Below, in pieces: positions 2,449-14,920 of a DNA stretch of 64,000 nt. The position numbers were made by a program, and so were the translations under genes. Source of the DNA: Crateriforma conspicua (GTDB lineage: Bacteria; Planctomycetota; Planctomycetia; Pirellulales; Pirellulaceae); NCBI RefSeq assembly GCF_007752935.1, contig NZ_CP036319.1, forward strand, positions 6,933,155-6,997,154, written 5' to 3'. The first letter of the stretch is position 1; each line of letters starts with the position of its first letter. The notes under the pieces are model-generated. The model saw nothing but the letters and a program-made list of their open reading frames with translations. It ran no database searches and had not been told where the DNA came from.

Positions 2449-3483
2449 CTAATACCGAAGCGTGTAAGCCGGACTGCGATCCAAGTCTTGCCCTGTGCGA
2501 ATATACCGGAGCGTGGTCCTTGGATCACGGTGTCCAAGCCACTGCTGGATCTGATTGAGCGGAACACCTGCTCGGTCGGCTTCCGTAGCGGCAGTCACAC
2601 GAAGCGAGTGGACACTTACCGCCTGATCAATGCCGACCTCCTGGCAGTACTTCTTCACGAGTTTCTGGATCGCCCGAATGGTCATGTGACTACGGCGAAA
2701 ACCATCGGCTCCACCACCTCGCGGGCTATTGCCCGGGCGAAATAGGGGACCACGACGATCCTCGATAATTCCGGCCGTTTCGATCCATTGATTGACGGCG
2801 GTAGCTGCAACGGGCGGAATCACTCCTTTTCGAATCGAATTTCCCTTCCCGCGAATTTTGATCACGGTGTGTTCACCGTCCTGTGTGATGTTTCCCACGT
2901 TCATCTGGTGCAATTCGTCGACCCGGACGGCCATGTACGCAAAAACGGAAAGAATCGCCCGATCTCGGATCCCAGTGGGCTTCTCGATGTCGGGAGCTCG
3001 AAGCAATGCGGACATCATTTTGGGCGGAATTGCCGGCGTCTGTCCTTCGTCTGGAACCTTCGGAGTTGCAACAAAGTGCGGATGAGCTGGATTGGCTCCG
3101 CGGTAACCGTAGCTCTGAAGAAACGAGAAGAAGGATCGAATCGAAGTCATCTTTCGGGCGACCGTTGAGTTTGCACCTGGACTAGGTGTCCCATCGAAAT
3201 CGGCTCGACCACCTTGTTTCAGAAGATGGTCTCGCCAAGCGGTGACGTCCTCTGGAAGAACACGCGTCATGTGTTCGATGTGCGTGGGATTGATTCCCAG
3301 GTAATCGAGAAACTGTTCGACGTCTTGTCGGTAAGCCTGTCGCGTTCGCTCGGATTCTGTCTTGGAAAGCCAAGCATCCATCGCTTGTTGGATGACTGTT
3401 CGAAGTTCGGCGACGCTTCGCGGTTGGTTTCCACCGAACACTGGTGGAAGTGTTCCTGCATCAATCAGCTCGTGTTTTGACAT
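2449..3483 (-). CDS. Tyrosine recombinase / phage-type integrase
   Basis: Site-specific recombinase of 344 residues. An N-terminal SAM-like core-binding domain covers about residues 25-130 and a catalytic domain follows. Visible catalytic elements are Arg in YMAVRVDELHQM, Lys in IKIRGKGNSIRKG, HSLR (about 292-295), GHRDPRTTLRY with its His near 318, and the nucleophile Tyr near 327. The pentad therefore appears complete. I chose the ATG at 3483 because GGGACGG precedes it; an upstream in-frame start at 3534 lacks support. It lies upstream of the OLD nuclease gene on the same strand and diverges from the hypothetical gene at 3687. It is a different protein from the integrase at 13464-14675, so the island may be composite. 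Confidence 0.9.
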   Translation of the reverse strand: MSKHELIDAGTLPPVFGGNQPRSVAELRTVIQQAMDAWLSKTESERTRQAYRQDVEQFLDYLGINPTHIEHMTRVLPEDVTAWRDHLLKQGGRADFDGTPSPGANSTVARKMTSIRSFFSFLQSYGYRGANPAHPHFVATPKVPDEGQTPAIPPKMMSALLRAPDIEKPTGIRDRAILSVFAYMAVRVDELHQMNVGNITQDGEHTVIKIRGKGNSIRKGVIPPVAATAVNQWIETAGIIEDRRGPLFRPGNSPRGGGADGFRRSHMTIRAIQKLVKKYCQEVGIDQAVSVHSLRVTAATEADRAGVPLNQIQQWLGHRDPRTTLRYIRTGQDLDRSPAYTLRY

Positions 3484-3686
3484 GAGATCCGTCCCAAAAT
3501 TTTTTGTACGTATAAAGTGCGTTATACGAACCAAGAACTACCACGATTGGAAAGAATTGAACAGCTTAAGAAAGAATGGAACGTTTGATTTTCCGACGGT
3601 GTTGATCGTAAATTGCGGAGTTGGCTGATGGGCGTATTCAGCCCGGGTCGCCAGTGCCCGATCACAATTACTCGACGGAGACAACG

Positions 3687-5093: not shown

Positions 5094-5290
5094 CAGGAAA
5101 AGAATCTTGGGCGTAGCCGCCCTTCTTCTTGTGAAGCCGTTGCAATGACCAGACGGGGCCTTGGCCGGCTTGTGAATGCAATGGCGGAACACTCTTCCAA
5201 GGGTCGAATGTGATGGCCGCTTCGGACATTTGAATCGACCCGTCTCTTCGCGTGCGCGATAGCGAATAGACGAGTCGACGGACTGCCGTG

Positions 5291-6088
5291 ATGTTTGATG
5301 CGAAACTGTTCAAAGTCTTCTCTCCCGGTATTTTGGCCGTTGGATCAGACATTGATTTGTCAACAATTGCGACCATGAAATGGTCACCTGTAGAAATCGA
5401 GATCATTGAAGCCCTGACGCTAAAGGTTCGGGTATTCACCGCGAAACAACTCACCGAGTTTTGGCCTGGCTCCCAAGAATCAGACGTCATCGACCTGATG
5501 AAGCCGCTTTGCTCCGTTGGTTTTGTCGATCGGCGTGAAGTCTTCGCGCATCCAATTATTGACGTGTTCCATGACGGTGCCGCTGCCGGCCAATGGACGC
5601 CCGGTGATCCACCTCCTACGGGCGATGAATTCCGGGCTCTGGCCGACTACTTCCAAAGCCGTTGGAGTGAGGCAGAGGTTCCGTTCACTGTTTTCACTGC
5701 AACAAAGCAGGCGGCCAACCTGTGGGGAAGTCATCTTGTGGATCCGCCAAAAGATGACCAGTGGACGCACGACATCCACGTTGCAGAGACGTACATGCAG
5801 CTTCGAGCCGCAAATCCCGATAAGGCTCAACAAATCATCGGTGAGGGAGCATTGCCGAAACTGGGTCGTGAGATCGCTCGGATGAAGGATCCAGACCTTT
5901 TCTTGGTCGACGAAAAAGAGCAAGCCGAAACCGTGATCGAATTCGCCGGTGCGTACGACGAGAAGCACCTCCGAGATTTACATCGACACTGCTCGGGTGA
6001 AGCCTATAAGAGAATGAAAGCTCGCTACCCTCACCGGAAAACGCGTCTCTATCCCGACCCGCAAGGAACTGAATACCTGCTTGTTTAA
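5291..6088 (+). CDS. Winged-helix protein A of a two-gene cassette (replication-relaxation-like?)
   Basis: 265 residues from ATG 5291. Homology to the copy at 9456 would favour the internal Met codon at 5375 (MKWSPVEIEIIEAL); neither start has a clear ribosome binding site. The N-terminal 60 residues of the shared part form a winged-helix domain (EIIEALTLKVRVFTAKQLTEF). Then come W(S/T)PGxPxP (QWTPGDPPP), TKQAANLWG, the block THDIHVAETYMQL, and PDLFLV followed by VIEFAGAYDEKHLRDLHRHC. All these blocks recur in the protein at 9456. The order wHTH - H-rich block - PD...(D/E) - Tyr resembles replication-relaxation proteins (PF13814), but this is inference from memory. Its stop is 4 bp before the ATG of the next gene, implying coupled translation. 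Confidence 0.7.
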   Translation: MFDAKLFKVFSPGILAVGSDIDLSTIATMKWSPVEIEIIEALTLKVRVFTAKQLTEFWPGSQESDVIDLMKPLCSVGFVDRREVFAHPIIDVFHDGAAAGQWTPGDPPPTGDEFRALADYFQSRWSEAEVPFTVFTATKQAANLWGSHLVDPPKDDQWTHDIHVAETYMQLRAANPDKAQQIIGEGALPKLGREIARMKDPDLFLVDEKEQAETVIEFAGAYDEKHLRDLHRHCSGEAYKRMKARYPHRKTRLYPDPQGTEYLLV

Positions 6089-6092
6089 GCCA

Positions 6093-6863
6093 ATGATCGA
6101 TCTCGAATTTCTCCGGCACATCCACACCTACCGACTCACGACGCCAGAAATAGCTGCGAATCTGTTTGGCTTGTCTGTGGACGAGAGCAACGAGATTCTT
6201 GCAGCGCTCAGAGAGAAAGGGCTTGTCGCGTCAGCCGATCTGAACGGCTCCGATCCCTACTTCTTTTTGCAGCACAAAGCCGCCCAAGTGCTTCGCGTTG
6301 AGAAAGTCGACGCTGGGCCGATTAACGGCACGGCAAAGGTGCAAGCGTATGCATCCGCCTGCTTTTGTTGCGGAGGCAAGCGATTCAGGCCACTCATGGA
6401 TGCTCGCGTGTTTCGAACCTCCTTCCCAGAGCTGTATCGGCCGGGAGCGAAGATCAACTACTACACCGAGGGCGCAAAGCTCGGCCTCATTCGGGTTGAT
6501 ACCCGCGAAAACACGAACGGGGACGTGTTTCGCTTGATCGAGCGTGCGGGTCGCGATGTCCACAAGAGAACGCAACCGATCAAGAGCAAAAAGGAGCGGA
6601 AACAAGACTCCCTCCCTGAATTCCGAGATCTCGTCAAACGAGGACAGTTTGTCGTTACTGTGCTCACTGCATTTGAGCACAAGGCAAAACGCATTCGTTT
6701 CGAGCTTGATCAGATGCAGGATCGAAACCGGCTGTACCATTTGCACCGGAACATCTCACGGAATAACACGAAGGCTCGCTCTCGCGAAGAAGCTGATGCG
6801 GCGAAGATGGTCTTCGAACAGTGGCACAAGAATGATCGAGTGGAATTGCCCACGAAAAGTTGA
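6093..6863 (+). pseudogene. Winged-helix protein B of the cassette, 3' end replaced by an IS3 insertion
   Basis: From ATG 6093 (MIDLEFLRHIHTYRLTTPEI) the frame codes for a winged-helix domain (about residues 1-55) and a C-terminal half homologous to the protein at 10088: FRDLVKRGQFVVTVLTAFEH here against FRDLIDGNAFSVNVLTARDE there. The host codons stop at 6839 in ...EQWHKNDR; VELPTKS and the stop come from the left inverted repeat of the IS. Joining 6840 to 8154, keeping one CGAG, restores an open frame of 33 more codons that stops at 8249-8251. The protein may still fold, since only a proline-rich tail is lost. A CCGG-type cysteine pair (ACFCCGGKRF) is present here but not in the paralogue. 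Confidence 0.65.
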
Positions 6864-6909: not shown

Positions 6910-7200
6910 ATGGAAAAGCGTCGAATTTATAGTCGTGAGTTCAAACTCGCGGCAGTCCGAAAAGTCGTGGAGCACGGTTTGTCATTTCCAGCGGTCGCCA
7001 AAGACCTCGATGTCGGTGCGAATCTGATTCGCAAGTGGAAGAAAAACTTTGAAGCCGACGGCTCGCTGGAAAGTGAAATCACCAGCAGCAGTTCAGTCGA
7101 ATCCGAGCTGAAGCGACTCCGTGAAGAAAATCGACAGCTCAAAATGGAACGCGACATTTTAAAAAAAGCGACGGCGTTCTTCGCCAAAGAAAACAGCTGA
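6910..7200 (+). CDS. IS3-family transposase OrfA
   Basis: 96 residues, MEKRRIYSREFKLAAVRKVV at the start. An HTH_Tnp_1 helix-turn-helix (residues 8-50, KDLDVGANLIRKWKKNF) is followed by a leucine-zipper-like coiled coil (ELKRLREENRQLKMERDILKK), as in all IS3 OrfA proteins. ACAGGAG lies 7-13 bp before the ATG. The last codons before the stop contain the heptamer A AAA AAA (7161-7167). A -1 slip there joins orfA to orfB without a stop and would make the OrfAB transposase. Confidence 0.93.
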   Translation: MEKRRIYSREFKLAAVRKVVEHGLSFPAVAKDLDVGANLIRKWKKNFEADGSLESEITSSSSVESELKRLREENRQLKMERDILKKATAFFAKENS

Positions 7201-7244: not shown

Positions 7245-8081
7245 GTGCTCTGCCGAGCTCTCGAAGTGACGCGTGCGGCTTTCTACAAGTTCGCCAACCG
7301 TAAAGATACGCCGACACAGGCAAAGCAATCACAGGTCATCGACGCAATCAAAGCGGTTCATTCGCAAAGGCATCACGATGCCTATGGAAGCCCAAGAATG
7401 CATCGCGAGCTTGTCAAACGCGGCATCCAGTGCTGCCGAAACACAGTTGCCAAGTGCATGCGAAAAGCAGGAATCCAAGCAAATCGCCGTGCCAACTTTA
7501 GAATCTCCACCACCGACTCCAATCACAATTCACCGATTGCTCCCAATCTTCTTGAACAGGACTTTTCGACTGAGACGCTCAATCAAGTCTGGCTGACAGA
7601 CATCACGTACATCCCCACTAAAGAAGGATTCACCTACCTGGCCGCGTTTGTTGACCTGCATTCACGAAAGATCGTTGGCTGGAGAACCAGTCACCACATC
7701 GACTCAAATCTGGTGGTCGCGGCGCTGGATCAGGCCCTTGCGATCCGCACCCCTAAAGCAGGATTGATCATCCACAGTGATCGTGGTTCCCAGTACGCGA
7801 GCGAACATTTCCGAGGTCGATTGAATTGCCACCGGCTCGTTCAAAGCATGAGCCGTCGTGGCAACTGCTACGACAACGCCCCAATGGAATCTTTCTTTAA
7901 GAGTTACAAAACCGAAGAAGTTCAAGAGATATACGACACCCACGAGCATGCGACGCGCGGCGTGTCAGAATACATCGAAGGATTTTATAACCCAATTCGC
8001 TTGCACTCATCGTTGGAATACCAGAGTCCCATCGAGTTTGAGCAAGCCTTCAAAAAACTCTCACTCGTCAGTGAATCCTGA
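7245..8081 (+). CDS. IS3-family transposase OrfB (DDE integrase domain)
   Basis: 278 residues from GTG 7245; in vivo it is probably made as an OrfAB fusion, since its frame is open back to the slip site at 7167 (reading SDGVLRQRKQL...FIDEHRERWPIAVLCRALEV). It has an HTH_21 region and an rve integrase core with DDE residues in WLTDITYIPTKEGFTYLA, IIHSDRGSQYAS and NAPMESFFKSYKTEE. The C-terminal YNPIRLHSSLEYQSPIEFE motif is typical of IS3. No frameshift or truncation seen. Confidence 0.93.
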   Translation: MLCRALEVTRAAFYKFANRKDTPTQAKQSQVIDAIKAVHSQRHHDAYGSPRMHRELVKRGIQCCRNTVAKCMRKAGIQANRRANFRISTTDSNHNSPIAPNLLEQDFSTETLNQVWLTDITYIPTKEGFTYLAAFVDLHSRKIVGWRTSHHIDSNLVVAALDQALAIRTPKAGLIIHSDRGSQYASEHFRGRLNCHRLVQSMSRRGNCYDNAPMESFFKSYKTEEVQEIYDTHEHATRGVSEYIEGFYNPIRLHSSLEYQSPIEFEQAFKKLSLVSES

Positions 8082-8120
8082 TCGTCAGGACTCACAATTT
8101 CCCTTCCCGTTAGGATCGTT

Positions 8121-8149
8121 CCACTGTCAACTTTTCGTGGGCAATTCCA
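8121..8149 (+). repeat. Right inverted repeat of the IS3 element
   Basis: Starts CCACTGTCAACTTTTCGTGG and is the exact reverse complement of 6841-6869. It lies 40 bp after the orfB stop and is followed directly by the second copy of the CGAG target duplication. Confidence 0.93.
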
Positions 8150-8251
8150 CGAGGGGGAAGACGGCGTCGGGCGCCGGCTTATCCGCCGCCGCTTGAAATC
8201 GAAGTCGTCCCAGGACTCCTCGATGTGATGTTTCCAAAACCACCGAAATAA
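8150..8251 (+). pseudogene. Severed 3' end of the wHTH protein B gene
   Basis: Starting with the second CGAG copy, the frame of the 6093 gene continues as GGRRRRAPAYPPPLEIEVVP and GLLDVMFPKPPK, then TAA at 8249-8251. The segment is arginine- and then proline-rich and has no start codon of its own, so it is best read as the original C-terminus cut off by the IS. It is not present in the paralogue at 10088, which ends earlier. Confidence 0.6.
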
Positions 8252-8418
8252 AGATTGCCTGCCAATTGAGTCACCGCTTTTCTGTTTTCGTTCCTAGCAT
8301 GGTCACCGATCTTCGCAAGGACTACTCGGAAGGGGAACTTCCTGCGTTCCTCCATGCTAATCTCGCCTCTCCATGCCTTGACGTCACTACAGAAAAACGT
8401 CAACTCAATGGAGGCAAC

Positions 8419-8817
8419 ATGAACGAAAAGAGAACAATCACACACAGCGACTTGAGGCAGTTCACCGGAGACTCAGTTCGGTATCGCTCGATTCACCCGC
8501 AAGTGATTTGCACCCCCGGAATTCACTACTTGGCCGAAAACGCTGGTGCGTTCTGGCTCGTCAACACGATCGCAAGCTATTACAGCTCGCCAGAAATGCG
8601 AAAGGCAATCGAGCAGGACATCCGTGTAGCTGACATGCAGATATGGCGATTGGATGTCAGAGACCAGACCGGAGTTCTTACGGCTCGTGCCGATGCCGGC
8701 GAGCCGACATTCATTCGACAAGTTATCGACTACACAGATTTCCCTCTTGATCGGGCTGATATCTGGGGAGTGAGCAACTCGGTTCACACTACCTTGATGT
8801 TGCCCTCTGAGTACTGA
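8419..8817 (+). CDS. DUF6876-like small protein of mobile elements
   Basis: 132 residues, MNEKRTITHSDLRQFTGDSV at the start. The ATG at 8419 follows GGAGG with ideal spacing, so the longer frame from 8266 is rejected. The motifs FTG, YLAENAGAFWLVNTIASYYSS, MQIWRLDV and YTDFPL are as I remember DUF6876, a family found on plasmids and integrative elements and of unknown function. The C-terminus is TTLMLPSEY, nearly the same as that of the convergent gene at 8860. A strong terminator follows at once. Confidence 0.75.
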   Translation: MNEKRTITHSDLRQFTGDSVRYRSIHPQVICTPGIHYLAENAGAFWLVNTIASYYSSPEMRKAIEQDIRVADMQIWRLDVRDQTGVLTARADAGEPTFIRQVIDYTDFPLDRADIWGVSNSVHTTLMLPSEY

Positions 8818-8823
8818 GAGAGA

Positions 8824-8856
8824 AGCCCGGGGCAATCGCTCCGGGCTGCTTTTTTA
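8824..8856 (+). terminator. Rho-independent terminator after the DUF6876-like gene
   Basis: AGCCCGG (8824-8830) pairs with CCGGGCT (8841-8847) around a 10-base loop, and GC plus six T residues follow. It sits 6 bp after the stop at 8817 and separates two convergent genes, ending before the stop of the minus-strand gene at 8860. Confidence 0.8.
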
Positions 8857-8859
8857 ACC

Positions 8860-9129
8860 CTAGTACTCTGACGGAAGCAGGATCGTTGTCGAAGATCGAT
8901 CCGCTTCCGTGATAATCCAGAACTTTTCGCCGTCTTTCGATTTGTAGCTCGAAAGAAGCCTCGCGTCGTTCTTCAGAGCCCATTCATTTTGCTGGGCATC
9001 TTCTTTGCAAACATCGCCCCAGTCACCCGTGACGTGGCGGTGCAGAGCTTCTTGAACCTCCTCCATGGGAATCGCCTCCTGGGCACCCGGCGTGATGCCG
9101 AGAAACCCCATCTCAAATCGCGGAGTCAT
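8860..9129 (-). CDS. Small conserved plasmid/ICE protein with C-terminal ITEADRSSTTILLPSEY
   Basis: 89 residues (MTPRFEMGFLGITPGAQEAI...). The layout LGxxxxTPGAxEA - HxxGDWGDV - WxxTEADRSxTTxLLPxEY matches a family of short proteins common on plasmids and integrative elements, whose function I do not know. An internal Met at residue 7 is an alternative start; no strong ribosome binding site separates them. It converges on the DUF6876-like gene with 42 bp between the stops, and both proteins end in LPSEY. Confidence 0.72.
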   Translation of the reverse strand: MTPRFEMGFLGITPGAQEAIPMEEVQEALHRHVTGDWGDVCKEDAQQNEWALKNDARLLSSYKSKDGEKFWIITEADRSSTTILLPSEY

Positions 9130-9455
9130 GGCGGTACCTGCGGGAAAACCGAGAAAGTGGACAGGTTCCGCTTACCACAATTTGCAAGTTTGGTCTCGCG
9201 CCGATTCCCTCCCCTCACCTGCACGGCGGACGCTCGCCGAGACCCGGATTCATGGCGGACAAAGTGACCACTTACCGCACAAAAAACATGGCATTTTTCT
9301 TCCGGTCATCGGCTGCCGTCAGTGCTGCCATCCTGATGTAGTCTTGTCCCGGTTTTTGCCGCGTTTTCGTCGATTCGGGGAGCCGCTCTGTCGCTCCGCG
9401 ATGTGTGCCCACCCTCGAAAGCAGCCCCGTGGAATTCCTTGCCTAGAATCCCGGT
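9130..9455. other. Gap of about 325 bp before the second wHTH cassette
   Basis: No ORF with a plausible ribosome binding site. Two segments have related sequence, AAAGTGGACAGG...CTTACC near 9154 and AAAGTGACCACTTACC near 9260; they are too short to interpret. The gap should contain divergent promoters for the genes at 9129 (minus) and 9456 (plus). Confidence 0.4.
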
Positions 9456-10094
9456 ATGAGGACAGCACTGACAAAGCGGGACGAAGACCTTCTGAAAACG
9501 TTGACGCATCGCGTCCACGTTGCAACGGCCGAGCAGATCGGACGGGGCTGGTGGGGTGGATGTCGAGAGCCGGGACGTTCCGCCCTGGAACGTGTTCGCA
9601 CCCTGCAGAAGATGGGACTCGTTGAATGTCACCGGGTAAACATCCATCCGCTGTTGCGGATGGAGAAGCCGGAAGCTTGTTGGTCGCCTGGACAGCCACG
9701 ACCAGACTTCGGGGCCGTCGCATATCGGCTGCGGAACCGGTGGACGCGTTCGCTGAAACTGACCGCGGTCGTGATCGCATCAAAGAAAGCTGCGAACACC
9801 TTCGCTGGCTTTGGCGGGAAGTTCAAACACCGAACCCAGCTCACACACGACACGCACGTCGCGGAGCTTTACCTTCGCCGCACGGCAATGGATGCAACCG
9901 TGCGGGAGCGTTGGGTTGGTGAAGAGATTCTCGGGCGAGACACCCGCGGCGAAAAGGTTCCAGACGCCCTACTCACAAACGGCGTGGGCGAAGCTGACCT
10001 CGTGATTGACTTTGGAGGAAGCTACGACAAGCGACGAGTCCAGCAGTTTCATTCCTACTGTGAGAAGAACGAGGTTGCATACGAGCTATGGTGA
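9456..10094 (+). CDS. Winged-helix protein A' of the second two-gene cassette
   Basis: 212 residues, MRTALTKRDEDLLKTLTHRV at the start. It shares with the protein at 5291 an N-terminal winged helix, the blocks CWSPGQPRP, SKKAANTF and LTHDTHVAELYLRR, and a C-terminal PDALL...DLVIDFGGSYDKRRVQQFHSYC. The acidic residue in VI(D/E)F, the PD pair and the THDxHVAE block are candidate active-site or binding residues, but the set lacks the ExK lysine of a classical PD-(D/E)xK nuclease. It overlaps the next gene by 7 bp (ATGGTGA). Family unassigned; a distant replication-relaxation relationship is possible. Confidence 0.75.
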   Translation: MRTALTKRDEDLLKTLTHRVHVATAEQIGRGWWGGCREPGRSALERVRTLQKMGLVECHRVNIHPLLRMEKPEACWSPGQPRPDFGAVAYRLRNRWTRSLKLTAVVIASKKAANTFAGFGGKFKHRTQLTHDTHVAELYLRRTAMDATVRERWVGEEILGRDTRGEKVPDALLTNGVGEADLVIDFGGSYDKRRVQQFHSYCEKNEVAYELW

Positions 10095-10765
10095 AGCGAA
10101 TACGACTTCAAGACAGGGACCATGCGATCCTTAGGCACATCGCGAGATATCGAATGACGACGGCTGAAACGCTTCACGAGACGTTTTTTGCTGGAAAGGG
10201 AGCCGATGCCGTGACAAGCACATTGCGAAGGCTTCGTGAGGCGGACTACGTCTGCTCATCGGATCTGGCTCCACCACGCAGATGCTACTATCGGCTAACC
10301 GCTAGGGCCACGCGAGCGATCGGTGTTGCCCCGTCCCTATCTCGTCCGCTCGGCGAACAAGCACTTCCGATTCGCTACGCGGTTCTGAGACATTGCTCGA
10401 AGAGCAAACGCCAATTCCTTACGGCCAATGAATTCTGTTCAGAGTTTTCTGAATGCGTCGCAACAGGCTTGCCGAATGAGCCGTACTGCCTGCACGATGA
10501 TGGGGAGTCGCCAGGCTTGGTGTTTCTTCTCGTCGATCTCGGTGCCGATGTCGGTCGCATCGTGCGTAAATGCCGGAAAGCACTCGGGGAGCGGAAGAAG
10601 ATTATTGGATTTCGTGACCTGATCGATGGGAATGCGTTCTCGGTCAACGTTCTCACGGCACGTGATGAAAAACGAGTCGCTTTACAGACAGCTTTGGAAC
10701 GGGAGGACAGCATCACGGATGCTGTCGATGTGTCGGTAGTCGATGATTTTGTGGGGTTGATATGA
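10088..10765 (+). CDS. Winged-helix protein B' of the second cassette
   Basis: 225 residues. A winged helix fills residues 8-60 (DHAILRHIARYRMTTAETLH...LRRLREADYVCSSDL), matching the protein at 6093 (FLRHIHTYRLTTPEI...LREKGLVASADL). A C-terminal domain holds LVFLLVDLGADVGRIVRKC and FRDLIDGNAFSVNVLTARDE. Similarity to the 6093 protein runs the full length. It starts inside the end of the 9456 gene and itself overlaps the next gene by 4 bp (ATGA), so three genes form one translationally coupled unit. Confidence 0.75.
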   Translation: MVKRIRLQDRDHAILRHIARYRMTTAETLHETFFAGKGADAVTSTLRRLREADYVCSSDLAPPRRCYYRLTARATRAIGVAPSLSRPLGEQALPIRYAVLRHCSKSKRQFLTANEFCSEFSECVATGLPNEPYCLHDDGESPGLVFLLVDLGADVGRIVRKCRKALGERKKIIGFRDLIDGNAFSVNVLTARDEKRVALQTALEREDSITDAVDVSVVDDFVGLI

Positions 10766-13463: not shown

Positions 13464-14675
13464 CTACTTCCCTTTCTTCTTTTTGTTGTTGGCAGCCTTT
13501 CTCGCTTGCTCCTGCATGTGCTCGGGGTTCTGTCCAAGATGCTGGTAAGTTCTGGCCAGAGTCGAGACGTCTCTGTGGCCGAGGAGAATCGAAACTGAAA
13601 TCGAGTCTAGTCCATTCCTCAGCCCGTTTGTGGCGAAGGCGTGCCGGAACGCGTAGAGCGAGTAGCGTCGTGCATGTTTTCGTCTGAGCTTCCCGCGAAG
13701 CTTCTCAACGGCTTCGTACCGAAGTTCAGCTGGGCGTTTCTCTCGAAGTTTTCCCTTTTCGCGTTTTGTCGGCGACAGCTTGGGAATAAACGCCCTCACC
13801 TCTTCATCGCTTACGTCGAGACTGAGGTCTTTCAAAACGGCTCGCCCCATCCGCTCCTGAAGTCGGTCAAAGGCACAGTTTACTGCTTCGGTCGTCCATG
13901 GCTTTCCCTTTGCGTTGCAAAAGATGTGGGCGTTCGGAGCGGATTGCCGGATGCGACGTTCCACGATCGCTTGCGATTCGTCGGACATATAGACGATTCG
14001 CGGTTCTCGTTTTCCCTTCGACTCGCTGGTCGGGAAGACCCAGCGACGATGTTCGAGTTGCACGTGCCTGGTTTGAACACGAAGTGATTCCTGGGGGCGG
14101 CATCCGGTCGTGTAGGTCGCGACGAGAAGATCCCGAAAGTCGTCGTTGGTGACGAATTCAAGCATTCGCTTGAATTCATCCGGCGGGACATAGATTTCTC
14201 TGGACTCTCCGCTCGGAACTTCCAGGAGCTCGAGCGGATTCTTCTCGATGTAGCCCTGGCGAACGGCCCACTTTAGGCAGCGTTTGATGCTGCGGTAGTA
14301 ATTTCGCCGGCTCGTTTTCGAAAGCTCGTAGGAATCGACCCAGCGTTCGACGTGAAATGGCCGAAGCTTCGCTGCGGTCAGGTCGGGGTGATGATCGACG
14401 AAGCGTTGAAGCCGGTATCGATACCACTCGTAGGTGTCGGGCGATCGATTCCTCTGAACCCATTCGAGGAAGTACTCACAAAGAGACGCAACCAAATGGT
14501 TGTCGTCTGTCTTGGGTGCGGCCGGAATGCCGGAAGCGGCATCGGCCATCAGCTGGTAGTACCGACGGAATGCCTCCTCCTTGTCCGGGCCGAGGTTGAT
14601 CTGTTTGCCGCCGATCTGGACGTACCAGCGTTTGCGGCTCTTTCGGAAAAAGGGTTTTGGGGTGTGGTAGTGCAT
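13464..14675 (-). CDS. Tyrosine recombinase / integrase next to tRNA-Arg
   Basis: 403 residues from ATG 14675 (MHYHTPKPFFRKSRKRWYVQ), preceded by CGGAGACTCGCT; an in-frame start at 14735 is less likely. An AP2/Arm-like N-terminus and a core-binding domain (about 60-150) precede the catalytic domain: TGCRPQESLRVQ with the first Arg, ESKGKREPRIVY with Lys, YAFRHAFATNGL, ILLGHRDVSTLARTY. The first His of the usual HxxR box is Tyr (YAFR), a variant seen in other integrases. The C-terminus is a lysine run. The gene lies 171 bp from the 3' end of the tRNA gene, the classical arrangement for an element integrated in a tRNA. Confidence 0.9.
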   Translation of the reverse strand: MHYHTPKPFFRKSRKRWYVQIGGKQINLGPDKEEAFRRYYQLMADAASGIPAAPKTDDNHLVASLCEYFLEWVQRNRSPDTYEWYRYRLQRFVDHHPDLTAAKLRPFHVERWVDSYELSKTSRRNYYRSIKRCLKWAVRQGYIEKNPLELLEVPSGESREIYVPPDEFKRMLEFVTNDDFRDLLVATYTTGCRPQESLRVQTRHVQLEHRRWVFPTSESKGKREPRIVYMSDESQAIVERRIRQSAPNAHIFCNAKGKPWTTEAVNCAFDRLQERMGRAVLKDLSLDVSDEEVRAFIPKLSPTKREKGKLREKRPAELRYEAVEKLRGKLRRKHARRYSLYAFRHAFATNGLRNGLDSISVSILLGHRDVSTLARTYQHLGQNPEHMQEQARKAANNKKKKGK

Positions 14676-14846
14676 AGCGAGTCTCCGGGCACCGAGAAAA
14701 TGGGATGCAACCGAAGTGGGCCGGGTGGCTCGCATGAACTTGGGAAGCTCATCTCTGACAGAATCTCTGCCAGCTGCACTGACTTATAGCGAGTCGGTGA
14801 CGCGTGAGAAGTTGCAAGTTACTGGAAGGTAAAGACTTGCAAAAAG

Positions 14847-14920
14847 TACACCCGGAGGGATTCGAACCCCCAACCCTCGGTTCCGAAGACCGATGCGCTA
14901 TCCAGTTGTGCCACGGGTGC
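14847..14920 (-). tRNA. tRNA-Arg (anticodon UCG)
   Basis: The minus strand reads GCACCCGTGGCACAACTGGA and folds as a complete cloverleaf. Acceptor GCACCCG pairs with CGGGTGT (G-U at the first pair). The anticodon arm is TCGGT-CTTCGGA-ACCGA with anticodon TCG, and the T arm contains GGTTCGAATC. CCA is not encoded. The 3' end faces the integrase at 13464-14675, so the tRNA 3' half is the probable attB/attR site of the island. Confidence 0.92.

Follow-up and report, generated by a model that had tools for sequence, protein, structure and literature searches.

Two small genes face each other in the DNA analysed here, and the proteins they encode end in the same five residues. Why do two proteins that look so different share an ending? 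The window is a stretch of 64,000 nucleotides from Crateriforma conspicua, and the features that bear on the question are listed in Table 1. We use F2 as a working name for the family of P0002.

Table 1. Features of the window discussed in the text, with positions counted from the first nucleotide of the window.
Feature	Position	Strand	Remarks
P0001, DUF6876 gene, 132 aa	8419..8817	+	Stop 8815-8817; Pfam match
P0002, F2 gene, 89 aa	8860..9129	-	Stop 8860-8862; without Pfam or NCBIfam model
P0001 C-terminal LPSEY	8800..8814	+	
P0002 C-terminal LPSEY	8863..8877	-	
P0001 T-x-G motif (T32-P33-G34)	8512..8520	+	Between beta1 and helix 1
P0002 T-x-G motif (T13-P14-G15)	9085..9093	-	Between beta1 and helix 1
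Intrinsic-terminator-like hairpin, then T run	8824..8847	+	Between the convergent stops
Tyrosine recombinase	2449-3534		
Tyrosine recombinase	13464-14735		Adjoins 3' end of tRNA-Arg, as in integrated elements
tRNA-Arg	14846-14920		
IS3-like transposase ORF with integrase core	7245-8081		
Likely first ORF of the IS3-like element	6910-7200		Assigned by eye

The shared ending

The first-pass annotation had reported that both proteins end in LPSEY and that 42 bp separate the two stops. Translation confirmed this: P0001 ends in HTTLMLPSEY, P0002 ends in SSTTILLPSEY, and the gap between the convergent stops spans 8818-8859. When the two proteins were compared by BLASTP, nine tail residues aligned, seven of them identical (7/9), and the rest was noise. 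LPSEY is the only last pentapeptide in common among the 594 stop-to-stop ORFs of at least 60 aa in the window. A recent DNA-level copy of the tail from one gene to the other was considered and rejected; the final 30 nucleotides agree at 19 positions. As for the hairpin in the gap, one site was found versus 1.9 expected in shuffles of 8100-9500, with a fold z of -5.7.

Families of the two proteins

P0001 is a member of DUF6876 (PF21781), which Pfam describes as a family of unknown function. The match has an E-value of 6.5e-32 and a score of 110.4 bits against a gathering cut-off of 27, and it covers positions 3-117 of the 117 in the profile, which reaches the last residue of the protein. P0002 gave no Pfam match at E up to 10 and so is also not a DUF6876 protein by Pfam. 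No NCBIfam model matched it over the cut-off (best E 0.03, far below cut-off), PADLOC gave no match, and PHROGs returned only a chance-level match.

A third family, DUF3768 (PF12599), resembles both proteins: it has a T-x-G near its start, an FWKI segment, an (L)TIMLAxEY end and a Glu/Asp swap in step with T-x-G. It differs in that most of its tails carry A instead of P and in having its own NDPxGEHDFG motif. The Pfam model of DUF3768 gave no match to P0001 or to P0002, and judged from sequence the likeness appears to be at the superfamily level only.

F2 is widespread. We confirmed 538 stretches in genome_contigs as relatives, from contigs labelled planctomycete, Verrucomicrobia, Clostridia, proteobacteria, one archaeal bin and others, and found the family on plasmids (185 records) and in 4 phage records. 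DUF6876 was found in 46 plasmid records and in no phage record, and a search of viral_contigs with P0001 as the lone query gave no match. In two records (L055 and L247), a Pseudomonas veronii plasmid and a viral contig, F2 forms the C-terminal domain of a DUF6094 methyltransferase (PF19587), with the tail retained at the end of the fusion; P0002 itself, unlike these, matches no methyltransferase family. In plasmid records the F2 proteins are named "hypothetical protein" or, often, "type I restriction endonuclease subunit M"; the latter name is unsupported here.

In the literature we found no paper naming DUF6876, DUF3768, PF12599, PF21781 or DUF6094; F2 is nameless and cannot be searched by name. 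Among the papers listed for LPSEY, LPEEY and LPEDY, none was on these proteins, judged by titles and the opening parts of abstracts.

Conservation of the ending within each family

To describe the tail in each family, we counted unique ORFs whose sequences had been chosen independently of the tail. Among 191 F2 ORFs, an acid stands at position -2 (the penultimate residue) in 182, Y is last in 183 and P or A is at -4 in 184. Among 37 DUF6876 ORFs, E is at -2 in all 37, P or A is at -4 in 32, and Y is last in 24; the other 13 end in H or R. Both families thus keep the tail, and keep it at the extreme C-terminus; the alignments, named beforehand as the test that could expose a variable tail, did not reveal one. 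What holds is the acid at -2, constant or nearly so; the last residue of DUF6876 does vary among Y, H and R. All four Pro codons, both Glu codons and all three stops are used in the tails, which indicates that selection acts on the protein.

A wider F2 set of 195 unique ORFs also includes loci L370-L390, which a motif scan had supplied; the motif stands at the end of 186 of the 195. One F2 copy at locus L138 carries a 151-residue C-terminal extension and its tail motif is gone; it is the sole F2 ORF with a long C-terminal extension among the 195. Loci L120, L138, L144 and L299 each have two F2 ORFs. At L005/L007, in a genome of the same class (G069), the DUF6876 match is spread over two ORFs with an internal stop.

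Proteins that carry the ending

DNA patterns of the ending were scanned over viral_contigs, the terminating ORF was classified, and ORFs of at least 60 aa were counted. In the LLPxEY, MLPxEY and MLAxEY scans TGA was the only stop codon. LLPxEY-stop gave 35 matches and 27 such ORFs, of which 14 were DUF6876, 10 F2 and 3 other (9, 10 and 3 unique proteins). MLPxEY-stop gave 101 matches and 74 ORFs: 45 DUF6876, 23 F2 and 6 other (41, 16 and 5 unique proteins). Over these two patterns, [LM]LPxEY-stop, 92 of 101 ORFs of at least 60 aa are DUF6876 or F2. MLAxEY-stop gave 83 matches and 48 ORFs, among them 39 DUF3768, 3 DUF6876, 1 F2 and 5 other (37, 2, 1 and 5 unique proteins). In the three TGA scans, therefore, three small families make up most of the proteins with such an ending. 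An AT-rich scan, [IM][LIM]PxEY-TAA, gave at least 120 matches and 6 ORFs of at least 60 aa, with no DUF6876, F2 or DUF3768 among the matches listed; it reveals the chance background, without family members that use those codons.

Predicted structures

AlphaFold2 models were built from family alignments. The P0002 model has a pLDDT of 97.6 and a pTM of 0.87, the P0001 model a pLDDT of 91.8 and a pTM of 0.85, and in both the block-mean pLDDT is at least 90 through the tail. The F2 model runs strand, three helices, three strands; the DUF6876 model runs N-terminal helix, beta1, T-x-G, four helices, five strands and the LPSEY turn. In both, the first strand leads into T-P-G and then a helix, and the tail is formed by the last strand and a three-residue turn. 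With confidence this high up to the final residue, the tail looks like part of the fold, a last strand with its turn, and not like a loose tag.

When each model was compared separately with the PDB by VIA-align, the best match of both was 2r41, an Enterococcus faecalis protein of unknown function. The DUF6876 model matched with Z 9.9 over 98 residues at 3.0 A (next row 3.6), and the F2 model with Z 5.7 over 69 residues at 3.3 A (next row 4.2), a Z that lies in the tool's common range for mere resemblance and is not decisive alone. Both alignments extend to the last model residue, up to residue 104 of the chain. Foldseek placed 2r41 first for the DUF6876 model (E 0.003, probability 1.00); for the F2 model a HigB2 toxin led with E 0.15, and 2r41 came second with E 0.16. 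Against viral models, the DUF6876 model gave no Foldseek match with E below 0.001. In contrast to the structural match, a search of the PDB by sequence found no similarity to 2r41. Two guesses at the family of 2r41, DUF1827 and DUF3860, found nothing in support (0/3 and 0/299 genomes, with the controls silent too), and literature searches for "2R41" returned unrelated items only.

Profile comparisons

The profiles of F2 and DUF6876 align only over the last 21-22 columns, with a score of 29.6 that 0 of 200 column-permuted controls reached. When ten tail columns were removed, strand 1-T-x-G-helix 1 came out on top, at a level no better than chance: it was reached by 12 of 200 and by 6 of 100 permutations, and by 17 of 200 when five columns were removed. 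Beyond the tail, the profile similarity of F2 and DUF6876 is not significant.

DUF3768 gave further matches. Against a deep DUF3768 profile, the F2 alignment spanned 72 columns and reached the C-terminus of each family, with an E of 0.001 that none of 100 controls attained; the tail part of this result is biased, since most rows of the deep profile came from the tail-selected scan. With the tail cut, T-x-G was still matched, over 15 columns (E 4e-4, 0 of 100 controls). DUF6876 against DUF3768 gave an E of 0.0013, reached by 1 of 100 controls, and an E of 0.0065 with the tail cut, reached by 0 of 100. A first DUF3768 profile of 8 rows had given weak matches, which 8 of 200 and 4 of 200 controls reached. 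It is plausible on these comparisons that DUF3768 bridges F2 and DUF6876, each link being weak by itself.

Covariation between the tail acid and T-x-G

Residue 13 of F2, the T of T-x-G, is kept in 97% of sequences, and the motif is shared by the other two families. In DUF6876, T and G are present in 65 of 65 aligned sequences and the tail E is invariant also, among rows that were in part selected by the tail. In DUF3768, T and G are present at 91% each of 46 sequences, and among 57 loci found by the central motif or the Pfam profile, E or D is at -2 in 53 and Y is last in 51. T-x-G together with an acid at -2, the signature we propose, is thus found in F2, DUF6876 and DUF3768.

In F2 the two halves of the signature change together. 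Gly15 goes with Glu at the tail, larger residues with Asp, and the G15-E88 pair ranks 2 of 3570 column pairs by covariation. Among 163 sequences the pairings were G/E 97, nonG/D 40, nonG/E 15, G/D 5 and other 6; without tail-found loci they were G/E 88, nonG/D 40, nonG/E 15, G/D 5 and other 6. Using a tree built without the two columns, we obtained 35 independent pairs that differ at residue 15: 22 were for the swap, 0 against, and 13 had the same tail (p 5e-7). For the Fisher test and the pairs we dropped the 6 of 163 rows that lack both E and D at -2.

DUF3768 has a similar distribution (n = 57): G/E 41, nonG/D 9, G/D 2, nonG/E 1 and other 4. The swap there comes from few independent changes: of 3 independent pairs, 1 was for it, 0 were against and 2 had the same tail. 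The column pair ranks 16 of 5151, and here too the rows that lack both E and D at -2, 4 of 57, were dropped before the Fisher test and the pairing. That the choice between E and D in F2 follows residue 15 speaks for packing. The simplest reading is that the tail acid touches the start of helix 1, where the longer Glu would be used if residue 15 is Gly.

A two-part signature and its alternatives

We consider that DUF6876, F2 and DUF3768 form one distant superfamily and that the tail supplies the C-terminal part of a structural signature with two halves, a reading to which we give a probability of about 0.7. The signature would be T-x-G ... [PA]-x-[E/D]-Y-COOH. The first strand would enter T-x-G, which would start helix 1; at the other end, an L/M-rich last strand would be followed by a tight turn, and the penultimate acid would rest on the third residue of T-x-G, shutting the fold like a clasp. 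A shared fold in the three families with the tail clasped to helix 1 is the best reading of the evidence as a whole; DUF3768 presumably has the same arrangement, and we infer a common ancestry of the three. Such a superfamily, carried by plasmids and other mobile DNA, would be undescribed.

The first-pass annotation had called the two proteins otherwise unrelated. This is probably wrong: both models have 2r41 as their best match by structural alignment, both families have a conserved T-x-G, and DUF3768 gives a weak profile bridge with an F2-like swap. Nor is its proposal of a tag for binding or degradation supported as far as a loose appendage is meant, given a tail modelled as a confident last strand and turn and an F2 acid that covaries with a residue near the N-terminus. 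The surface of the tail may additionally bind a partner. Where the first reading saw unrelated proteins with a common tag, we now see members of one probable superfamily that share a structural clasp.

Alternatively, unrelated folds may have gained the same ending, with one host or element factor binding the free LPxEY end. In favour of this, the motif is at the very C-terminus even in the fusions to DUF6094, the L138 copy with its long extension has lost it, and the profile likeness of F2 and DUF6876 does not extend significantly beyond it. Against such convergence stand the position of the tail within the modelled sheet, the shared best structural-alignment match to 2r41 and the covariation of the acid with T-x-G in F2 and, over few changes, in DUF3768; we regard it as unlikely. 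A degradation tag is far less likely still. The ending is short, conserved and C-terminal as such a tag would be, and yet it is modelled as ordered (block pLDDT of at least 90), is conserved across phyla and in some phages, and is not of the LAA type of the ssrA tag. A chance match of two short ends has nothing in its favour except the shortness of the motif. The ending is kept in each family and the motif scans return these same families, so chance is rejected as close to impossible.

The main functional rival is descent from a RelE-like nuclease, either a nuclease or a nuclease-derived domain, with the C-terminal acid and the Tyr, His or Arg after it in the active site; this is compatible with a shared fold. 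RelE-family ribonucleases have catalytic residues near the C-terminus. The helix and strand order is similar, RelE, HigB2 and YoeB chains rank next below 2r41 for F2 (Z at most 4.2), Foldseek lists HigB2 ahead of all others for F2, and DUF6876 matches RelE- and YoeB-type chains with Z up to 3.1. F2 also has a set of conserved polar residues, H32, D36, D44, N48, R57, S60, Y62, T74, E75, D77, R78 and T81. On the other side, Z values of this size occur with mere resemblance, ATP-grasp enzymes, which are unrelated, rank above these chains for DUF6876 (3.6), no sequence match was found, and no antitoxin was recognised among the named neighbour clusters, which comprise ORFs of 70 aa and more. The choice between E and D also tracks residue 15, in favour of packing. 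A RelE-like nuclease or nuclease-derived domain seems improbable.

DUF6876 and DUF3768 are named only as families of unknown function, and F2 is widespread and has no Pfam or NCBIfam model. One signature that joins the three gives a testable handle in T-x-G, the tail acid and their swap. More generally, a C-terminus that resembles a peptide tag can be a sign of distant common origin.

Co-occurrence, neighbours and possible role

A shared tail could also have marked a functional pair whose members travel together on mobile elements, as was suggested at first. The two genes are adjacent and convergent here, and each family is found on mobile elements. Among 108 DUF6876 and 233 F2 loci, however, with a DNA span around each match that ranged from almost none to about 10 kb, only two loci hold both families, and both are the window itself. 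No accession is common to the 60 of 185 F2 plasmid records compared and all 46 DUF6876 records. In a phylum sample of 343 genomes, DUF6876 occurs in 5 (4 over cut-off) and F2 in 21, and two genomes have both. When the genome that the window comes from is set aside, one such genome remains and the overlap is not significant (p 0.17). We conclude that the convergent placement in the window is incidental, and a travelling pair is very improbable.

Within 2.5 kb of the two families pooled, the most recurrent neighbour is an ArdC-type cluster, near 19 of 230 F2 and 6 of 103 DUF6876 loci, while an integrase cluster is near 21 F2 loci and 1 DUF6876 locus; these counts come without control loci and are a lead, not an enrichment test. 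The representative of the ArdC-type cluster has ArdcN, a zincin-like peptidase domain and RadC. Families were also sought in 112 of 120 picked F2 neighbours and 92 of 136 picked DUF6876 neighbours, all of them ORFs of 90-650 aa (picks capped at 120, and at 70 of the motif-scan loci). Among the best 25 of 53 families near F2 (n = 112) were the CHC2 primase zinc finger (7), RadC (5), integrase (4), N6/N4 methylase (3), ArdcN (3) and DUF6094 (2). The DUF6876 neighbours (n = 92) were diverse, with no family in more than 2 among the best 25 of 46. PMC7213743 deals with ArdC of R388. No passage with "DUF", "ArdC" or "LPSEY" was found in PMC11541004.

We tentatively suggest that these are small accessory proteins of mobile elements. 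Their conserved polar residues would bind a ligand or a partner while the element becomes established, and our best guess for the setting is anti-restriction or DNA processing. The elements that carry them would be plasmids, integrated elements and some phages. If this role is true, the three families become candidates for one activity. It is more speculative that the free acid-Tyr end on helix 1 and the F2 polar residues form a ligand-binding or catalytic pocket that acts against host defence or in DNA entry. If so, the carboxylate at the C-terminus would have a function of its own, and the near absence of members that extend past the tail would be accounted for.

Surroundings of the gene pair

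The surroundings of the pair look mobile, with two tyrosine recombinases and an IS3-like element in the window (Table 1). The tRNA-Arg stretch has no exact repeat of at least 12 bases elsewhere in the window. An AAA_15-type ATPase (284-2362), which we take to be OLD-like, adjoins the first tyrosine recombinase. Tandem gene pairs at 5288-6863 and 9456-10765 flank the IS3-like element and the DUF6876 and F2 genes. None of the genes in these flanking pairs has a Pfam family over its cut-off. The two pairs are paralogous: their first genes share 30% identity (E 7e-29) and their second genes 29% (E 7e-12).
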